Below are positions 1,401 through 61,627 of a DNA stretch of 64,000 bases, piece after piece. The stretch comes from an uncultured Clostridia bacterium. GTDB taxonomy: Bacteria; Bacillota; Clostridia; UBA1381. Made by a program: the position numbers and the translations under genes. The notes beneath the pieces are model-generated. The model was not told the DNA's origin. It did not search any database and was given only the letters and a program-made list of their open reading frames with translations. The first letter of the stretch is position 1. The number at the start of each line of letters is the position of its first letter. The stretch lies in NCBI GenBank assembly GCA_947631085.1, contig CANRJY010000002.1, positions 124,001-188,000 on the forward strand, in the 5' to 3' direction.

Positions 1401-1721
1401 TTAACTCATCTGCCTTCCGATCACGTTTTCGACTATTCTGTTTATCCATGTTTCCCTGTTAGCCTTGTATTTATCCTCCAGCGCCGCGATTTTTTCGTCG
1501 AGCCCTTTCTTTATTGCCGCGATTTTTTCCTCGGTTTCGGTTTCTTCGACGTTTTTGAGGTATTCCTCGCGCTTTTTGGCGCGTTTTTCGATATCCTCCT
1601 CAAGCTCCTTCGTCTTTTCGGCTATGGTTTCCTCGAGGTCGCCGTCGGCTTTTTTCGCGTCGGAGATAATCTCCTGGGCTTTGTCCTCGATTTCAATAAT
1701 TTTCATGATAAGTTCTTCCAT
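1401..1721 (-). CDS. V-type ATP synthase subunit G/H-like coiled-coil protein
   Basis: 106 aa, highly charged coiled coil directly upstream of subunits C and I. Confidence 0.65.
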   Translation of the reverse strand: MEELIMKIIEIEDKAQEIISDAKKADGDLEETIAEKTKELEEDIEKRAKKREEYLKNVEETETEEKIAAIKKGLDEKIAALEDKYKANRETWINRIVENVIGRQMS

Positions 1722-45535: not shown

Positions 45536-45564
45536 TGGACAAATTCACGGCAAAATGTTATAAT
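45536..45564 (+). promoter_or_regulatory. SigA-type promoter for the DUF445 gene
   Basis: TGGACA-17 nt-TATAAT. Confidence 0.75.
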
Positions 45565-45572
45565 AACCTCAC

Positions 45573-45621
45573 GGCGTTACCAAAAGCAAAGCTTTTGACG
45601 CCTGAGAGAACATTGTATCAT
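45573..45621 (+). ncRNA. Putative structured 5'-leader motif, copy 1
   Basis: ggcgttaccaaaagcaaagcttttgacgcctgagagaacattgtatcat; matches 61579-61627 at 42/49 positions with no gaps. Confidence 0.6.
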
Positions 45622-45703
45622 AACGCTGCGGCGACGCTGCCGCCTTGCAGTTATGATATAATATTCAAAATGAGACAATATTAGAGAAAATTTTTGAGAA
45701 AAG

Positions 45704-46609
45704 GTGTTATATATGAATTTTTCATTTCTTATACCGCCTCTGATCGGCGGAGTTATAGGCTATATCACAAACGCCGTGGCGATTAAAATGCTGTTCAGGC
45801 CTCGCCGCGCCGTTTATATCGGCAAGCATCGGCTTCCTTTTACGCCCGGACTTATCCCGCGCGAGAAGGCGCGTGTGGCGAGATCCGTCGGAAATGTGAT
45901 AAGCACTCAGCTTCTTAATACCGAGACTTTAGCCGCTGTTCTGACGTCGGAAAATACTACTTCAAAAATAAGAAACGGCATAAAGGAATTTGTGGAGAAA
46001 AATAAAGATAATAATACCTCTCTCGGGAACGCCATGCTTTGGTTCATGTCCGAGAGCGACGCGGACGCCGTTACTTCAAAAGTCCAAAACGAGGCGGCGC
46101 GGTTTATTTACAATAAAATCACGGGAACACAGGCGCGCGAAGCAATCTCCTCGGGCATATCGAATCTTATAAAGAAAAAGATGGGCTCGATAGGGCTCGG
46201 AGTGCTCGATAAGCTGTTCGATCCCATCGCGCGCGGAATCGGCAGCGCGGTCAACGACGCTATTTACGAAAACGGATACGAGATCGTCGAAGAGCTTATT
46301 TCGTCGGAAACCGATAAGCTGAAAAAGCTGAAAATATGCGATGTGATCGATATGAATAAGGACAAAATGTCGTCGATCGCGGATTTTGTTATGAATATTT
46401 ATATGCGCGTTATCAGAGAACGGCTCGGACAGATACTTGAGAGCATAGATATAGCCAAGATCGTCGAGGACCGCATAGCCTCGTTCGACGTTATTCAGCT
46501 TGAAAATATGATTTTCGGAATCATGAAAAAGGAATTAAACGCAATCGTATATTTGGGGGCGCTGCTGGGCTTTATTATGGGCTGGCTCAATCTTCTTGTT
46601 AAATTCTGA
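45704..46609 (+). CDS. DUF445 family membrane protein (YheB-like)
   Basis: 301 aa, GGVIGYITNAVAIKMLFRPRRAVYIGKHRLPFTPGLIPREK. Confidence 0.9.
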   Translation: MLYMNFSFLIPPLIGGVIGYITNAVAIKMLFRPRRAVYIGKHRLPFTPGLIPREKARVARSVGNVISTQLLNTETLAAVLTSENTTSKIRNGIKEFVEKNKDNNTSLGNAMLWFMSESDADAVTSKVQNEAARFIYNKITGTQAREAISSGISNLIKKKMGSIGLGVLDKLFDPIARGIGSAVNDAIYENGYEIVEELISSETDKLKKLKICDVIDMNKDKMSSIADFVMNIYMRVIRERLGQILESIDIAKIVEDRIASFDVIQLENMIFGIMKKELNAIVYLGALLGFIMGWLNLLVKF

Positions 46610-61543: not shown

Positions 61544-61572
61544 TTGATTTATTTTAAGATATGTGCTATAAT
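61544..61572 (+). promoter_or_regulatory. SigA-type promoter for the clostripain-like gene
   Basis: TTGATT-17 nt-TATAAT, extended TGc. Confidence 0.75.
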
Positions 61573-61578
61573 GATTTT

Positions 61579-61627
61579 GGCGTTACCTAAATCGTAGATT
61601 TTGACGCCTGTGAGAACATTGTATTAT
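61579..61627 (+). ncRNA. Putative structured 5'-leader motif, copy 2
   Basis: ggcgttacctaaatcgtagattttgacgcctgtgagaacattgtattat. Confidence 0.6.

Follow-up and report, generated by a model that had tools for sequence, protein, structure and literature searches.

Sequence analysis of the locus

The stretch of DNA analysed in this work, referred to below as the window, comprises 64,000 nucleotides (nt) from an uncultured Clostridia bacterium (GenBank assembly GCA_947631085.1, contig CANRJY010000002.1, positions 124,001 to 188,000 of the forward strand), and it carries two copies of a short repeat, each located just behind the -10 box of a promoter. The first copy is a complete unit ahead of a gene for a DUF445 protein, and the second is evidently a decayed unit with both ends lost (Table 1). 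An initial annotation of the same DNA had described two 49-nt segments here (45573–45621 and 61579–61627) as a structured leader motif. These segments indeed differ at 7 of 49 positions (42/49 identical), and their tail pattern, CTGWGAGAACATTGTAT, has exactly two matches in the window at up to three mismatches, where 0.15 are expected and two were reached in 0/100 shuffles. The promoters, TGGACA and TTGATT at 17 bp from a TATAAT box, are present as described, and both are extended -10 boxes as well (TGTTATAAT in copy 1, TGCTATAAT in copy 2). Folding of the motif was also confirmed, with z = -3.1 for copy 1 and z = -2.1 for copy 2. The motif is real, but the limits given to it were too narrow, as the true unit spans 98 nt, contains a second hairpin and ends in TATAAT. 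A model of the left part of the unit (R1), which we used for copy counts, scores copy 1 with 78.5 bits (45565–45615) and copy 2 with 24.3 bits (E = 0.0011).

Table 1. Positions of the two repeat copies and adjoining features in the window (HP1 and HP2, first and second hairpin).
Feature	Position	Strand	Basis
TGGACA, -35 hexamer of the host promoter (not part of the element)	45536–45541	+	sequence
Extended -10 box TGTTATAAT (TATAAT at 45559–45564), left flank and proposed target	45556–45564	+	sequence, family-wide counts
Complete 98-nt unit, copy 1, between two TATAAT boxes	45565–45662	+	alignment; 98-nt tandem period in own genome
Conserved left end AACCTCAC	45565–45572	+	alignment, pair counts
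HP1: outer stem GGCGT/ACGCC, 5' bulge TAC, inner stem, short loop	45573–45602	+	covariation
Conserved linker TGAGAGAAC	45603–45611	+	alignment
Internal guide ATTGTATCA	45612–45620	+	complementarity to right end and left flank
HP2: imperfect palindrome ATTGTATCATAAC...GTTATGATATAAT, 3' arm ending in TATAAT, the right end of the unit	45612–45662	+	
Gene for DUF445 protein (PF04286)	45713–46609	+	
Promoter of copy 2, TTGATT (61544–61549)-17-TATAAT (61567–61572), TGCTATAAT	61544–61572	+	sequence
Decayed copy 2: HP1 and GAGAACATTG tail kept, AACCTCAC and HP2 lost	61579–61621	+	

Architecture of the unit

In the aligned loci the unit spans from AACCTCAC to the next TATAAT, in the order AACCTCAC, HP1, GAGAAC, ATTGNANCAT..., HP2 and ...ATGNTATAAT. 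When the internal guide is placed, this reads AACCTCAC - HP1 - GAGAAC - guide - HP2, with the right end TGNTATAAT inside the 3' arm of HP2. According to pair counts, CTCA of the left end is able to pair with TGAG after HP1, and there is no inverted-repeat relation between the two ends, AACCTCAC and ATAAT. Across 175 unique sequences, HP2 is paired with its own right end without a shift in register; position 4 (G) is almost never in a standard pair, and covariation is seen from position 7 onward. The guide ATTGTATCA is complementary to the right end TGATATAAT apart from a constant G.T, and also to the -10 box of the left flank, except at base N; likewise, guide ATTGNANCA complements TGNTATAAT.

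Units of the window's own genome measure 98 nt and often stand head-to-tail at exactly this distance, while their lengths differ in other species, where arrays reach 7 units. Across the family the element is gene-less and has a size of approx. 75–145 nt, and the tandem arrays are exact, every unit including a -10-like box. In 47 arrays the first unit is complete and the last incomplete; the opposite holds in 12.

Position at promoters and complementarity of the guide

In the first units of arrays, the left flank is TATAAT in 119/128 cases and TG-extended in 109/128, with a -35 signal that peaks at exactly 17 bp spacing, while inner units have TATAAT in 40/88 cases, without a -35 peak. Because the -35 signal is limited to first units, the promoter is part of the host site, and the element comes after its -10 box. 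Different loci have unrelated upstream flanks, up to the very edge of this box, and a co-oriented open reading frame with a ribosome-binding-site-like sequence comes after 94 of 105 arrays. As a separate observation, in two strains that are 99% identical downstream (loci L048 and L077; G, C and L numbers are our own handles for genomes, contigs and loci), the 60 nt upstream of the first unit are far more diverged than the surroundings.

Base N of TGNTATAAT is free. Of 96 first units, 54 have a guide that complements the left-flank N (27.7 expected, 0/2000 shuffles). With shuffling within genomes the values are 52 of 87 against 38.5 expected (0/3000), and the genome of Faecalispora jeddahensis (G329) alone gives 12 of 18 against 6.3 (p = 0.003). 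In addition, the last base of the left flank covaries with the first guide base (T~A 158, G~C 11, C~G 2). The G/C subfamily (AAG/CTT pairs) is present in several lineages and co-occurs with the T/A type in one Faecalispora genome; the subfamily with guide CTTG has TATAAG as its flank and lacks a promoter context. These statistics are based on unique sequences and within-genome shuffles rather than on a phylogeny, and the guide-flank tables contain some chance matches. Covarying guide and flank form the pattern that guide-directed targeting would leave, which suggests that the guide takes part in target choice. The left and right N are the same base in 59/96 first units, and since bases 10–12 show no left-right correlation, the match between the two sides extends over approx. 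9 nt.

Spread, gain and loss of units

In the window's own genome, 9 of 10 unlinked loci share 80% identity or more in the apical part of HP2, with a median of 98%, while for five other genomes the best median is 65% (group G336 was left out of this test, as one locus had been entered twice). Near-identity across unlinked loci, unlike in the HP2 of other genomes, points to recent spread in the own genome, and the sequences show that copies have spread or been homogenised within genomes. F. jeddahensis and Clostridium sporosphaeroides have many sites in common, with approx. 90% identity around most of them. Between L272 and L291 one whole unit was gained or lost, cut exactly between the TATAAT boxes, and at L290, L292 and L295 the stub alone is retained.

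Such changes could also arise without any transposition, if homologous recombination, gene conversion and slippage carried copies of a promoter-leader unit from locus to locus and multiplied them, TATAAT being simply the homology shared by both ends. Exact tandem periods, orthologous arrays that differ by whole units and stubs left after deletion are what such a process would give, and it would agree with a left-right match of only approx. 9 nt and with the lack of a transposase family common to carriers. However, because the upstream flanks are unrelated up to the -10 box, the exchange would need to start in 6–9 nt of homology; the near-identical HP2 at 9/10 unlinked loci and the fact that a changed guide accompanies a changed flank also speak against it. 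As an account of the whole family we find it unlikely, although homologous exchange between repeats could be the source of part of the pattern, the match at N included.

Pairing at the level of DNA or RNA

The covariation claimed in the initial annotation is borne out for HP1, where 93.8% of cells are paired, 121 cells are changed on both sides compared with 32 in shuffles (0/500 shuffles) and 10 of 16 pairs are changed on both sides. RNA helices tolerate G.U but not A.C. In 166 distinct units, the stem of HP1 has 40 G.T and 38 A.C mismatches, while tRNA stems from the same loci, taken as a control, have 24 G.T and 1 A.C. Since both mismatches are equally rare in HP1, what is conserved would be a DNA palindrome and not an RNA helix; this favours use of HP1 as DNA and speaks against a riboswitch. 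For HP2, the uncollapsed count leaned to G.T and the count collapsed by context was even (15 vs 16), and because the two disagree, HP2 is not a main argument for DNA-level pairing.

The annotation had proposed a ligand-sensing or protein-binding RNA or a 5' stability element, i.e., a cis-regulatory leader. The element is indeed placed where transcripts of good promoters have their 5' end, its hairpin is strongly conserved, most arrays precede a co-oriented gene (see above), and even the decayed copy 2 of the window retains HP1 and the tail. Apart from the mismatch counts, this reading is opposed by arrays of up to 7 units that contain -10 boxes, by the CTTG subfamily away from promoters and by the lack of a terminator-like U run after HP2 in the copies read. 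No riboswitch class had been recognised in the annotation, and Rfam likewise gave no family, with no gathering-score match in the window and only chance matches in a permissive search near the motifs. Nor do the associated genes share a pathway, as those downstream are diverse housekeeping genes: LytR, DUF445, CoaBC-like flavoprotein, RpiB, FtsK, LemA and class II tRNA synthetase, in addition to MgsA, FTHFS, LepA, SpoU, RuvC, PolA and Ppx/GppA. In short, riboswitches and other 5' leader RNAs share with the element the position at the transcript start and a conserved hairpin, and differ from it in DNA-level conservation, the absence of a common regulon and tandem arrays including -10 boxes. The initial annotation is thus partly supported: the motif is structured, undescribed, covarying and adjacent to promoters, but a regulatory RNA seems improbable to us, although the element may have a residual effect on the 5' end of the mRNA. 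If our reading is right, conservation and covariation of a hairpin in a 5' leader do not suffice to identify a regulatory RNA; counting G.T against A.C mismatches is an inexpensive way to tell the two readings apart.

DNA-level pairing would also be expected of a double-stranded operator, with palindromes bound by a dimeric regulator just past the -10 box, a site that suits a roadblock. An operator would conserve its sequence, whereas the stem changes freely if complementarity is kept, as its doubly changed pairs show, and we give this explanation hardly any weight.

Proposed mobility and comparison with known systems

The best inference, to which we assign a probability of approx. 0.6, is that these are non-autonomous mobile DNA elements which move by transposition and choose their target in a manner similar to the guides of IS200/IS605. 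The element would move as a strand folded into two hairpins, and its insertion point would be set by pairing of the guide with TGNTATAAT, or with TATAAG in the second subfamily. As this pairing fixes the insertion point, the element would land precisely between the -10 box and the transcription start and become the 5' leader of the resident gene, with any effect on expression presumably being a side effect. Tandem arrays would result from repeated insertion at the promoter-side box, or from unequal exchange, and units would decay at the promoter-distal end. A more far-reaching proposal is a new transposition or recombination system of Clostridia, in which the guide directs a folded 98-nt strand to the extended -10 box TGNTATAAT, where the DNA strands separate in open promoters, so that the element is installed between the -10 box and the transcription start of active genes; we offer it tentatively. 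Should targeting of this kind hold, a miniature element in a common group of gut bacteria would select the core promoter itself by base pairing and would rewrite the leaders at the 5' end of dozens of housekeeping genes. Nature would thereby provide an example in which promoter identity governs the choice of target, and the search for the enzyme of the element would become concrete.

Several results weigh against mobility of this kind. The guide is located beside HP2 and not 5' of HP1, as the left end of IS200/IS605 would need; no separate guide was found 5' of HP1, and the right end and the left flank are both complementary to one guide. The left-right match at N could have another source in exchange between repeats after insertion. 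In Faecalispora, the apical parts of HP2 are diverse between loci, so that spread there would be old. No clean pre-insertion site was found, since the orthologous sites of G334 hold a 5' unit stub or one unit fewer, and for this reason insertion into a naive promoter is something we only infer. In the loci examined, no autonomous version was seen in which HP1 and a far-off HP2 arm would enclose a gene, and no REPtron-like gene clusters with the arrays. Finally, each of the Y1_Tnp, IS110-type and reverse transcriptase (RT) families is missing from some of the genomes rich in copies.

In IS200/IS605, guides located 5' of palindromes pair with the cleavage sites (PMC8266576), and in IS608, changing the guide retargets insertion (PMC8266576, PMC5934647), which is paralleled by the AAT/ATT and AAG/CTT subfamilies of our element. 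Like IS200/IS605, the element has subterminal hairpins and lacks inverted terminal repeats. It would also insert on the 3' side of a short fixed sequence, and the guide ahead of its HP2 palindrome complements the presumed cleavage site at the right end. It differs in that several copy-rich genomes lack a Y1 transposase, in the single guide beside HP2 that seems to serve both ends, and in a target of approx. 9 nt, which is the extended -10 box. With repetitive extragenic palindromes (REP) and bacterial interspersed mosaic elements (BIME), which are associated with TnpA-REP (RAYT), it shares short, dispersed and bulged palindromes with a conserved adjacent sequence, often in tandem (PMC8266576). 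Unlike these, it has the flanks AACCTCACG and CTGAGAGAACATTG and no GTAG tetranucleotide, its pairs are direct and not inverted, it lies at promoters, and a RAYT-type gene (PF01797) is missing in carriers. Correia, RUP and BOX are miniature inverted-repeat transposable elements (MITEs) that bring or modify promoters. Our element is similarly short, gene-less, high-copy and intergenic, but has no terminal inverted repeats, and its TATAAT type is located behind a pre-existing -10 box, along the direction of transcription. By its design it is a variant of the REP/IS200-MITE kind, and by the tests made it is a member of neither.

Candidate mobilising enzymes

PF01797 (Y1) is present in 18 of 32 genomes, with no evident relation to copy number, and G253 (99% complete, 24 copies), F. 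jeddahensis (74 copies), C. minihomine, A. senegalensis and others lack it; Y1/RAYT as an obligatory partner was therefore rejected. An IS110-type (bridge RNA) element was rejected with PF02371 in only 3/10 carriers, and a retroelement, driven by a group II intron or RT, with PF00078 absent from G329 (74 copies), G331, G334 and G051. The arrays are also not CRISPR arrays, since HP2, their variable part, hardly differs from unit to unit in most of them; no search for cas genes was made. According to their translations, the genes between neighbouring arrays code for LCP, HD, glycosyltransferase, ferredoxin and CYTH-like proteins, with no recombinase among them. Host Xer recombinases or some other enzyme are possible movers.

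Distribution and copy number

The annotation had named the existence of only two copies as grounds for its refutation, but we found 16 matches to the tail pattern at 0–2 mismatches in the window's genome and hundreds in its relatives. Genomes of the same family have 27 (G051) and 13 (G029) pattern matches, and R1 finds 24 copies in G253, 74 in G329 (F. jeddahensis) and 28 in G334. A collection with one genome per species yielded more than 115 matching stretches, with Faecalispora jeddahensis, Clostridium sporosphaeroides, C. minihomine and Anaeromassilibacillus among the named carriers; going by record titles, the hosts are Clostridia, mainly Oscillospirales. Among 300 genomes sampled across the phylum, the window's own genome alone matched, so the family has a patchy distribution centred on certain lineages within the class, and no match was obtained among viral contigs, plasmids or phages. 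Contig ends often fall inside or next to arrays (G000 C17:12-33, the end of C32 and C13:347-368; the starts of G029:C7 and G009:C28), and because contigs break there, copy numbers from draft assemblies are probably underestimates. A literature search by sequence and by concept found no description of the element. It represents a widespread and apparently undescribed family, whose members are miniature hairpins located at extended -10 boxes.

Other repeats near the element

A different tandem repeat (TATAATAAACGCAA...GCCGTTTTTGC...TTTATGGTATAAT) and other repeats, seen at L080 (5995 onward), L091 (1818 onward) and L129 (4857 onward), are bounded by TATGGTATAAT as well, so more than one type of element may use the boundary TATGGTATAAT. 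In another family (L172, L173 and L174), the element stands amid clusters of other small hairpins with CGATATA or ATAATAAG-like spacers. At L166 (approx. 1501–1551, minus strand), the 5' part of a tRNA-like gene is present as a copy (GCCCCCGTAGTTAAATGGATATAAG) and is directly adjoined by a distant relative (AACCGC...); the apparently full gene is located approx. 145 nt beyond it.
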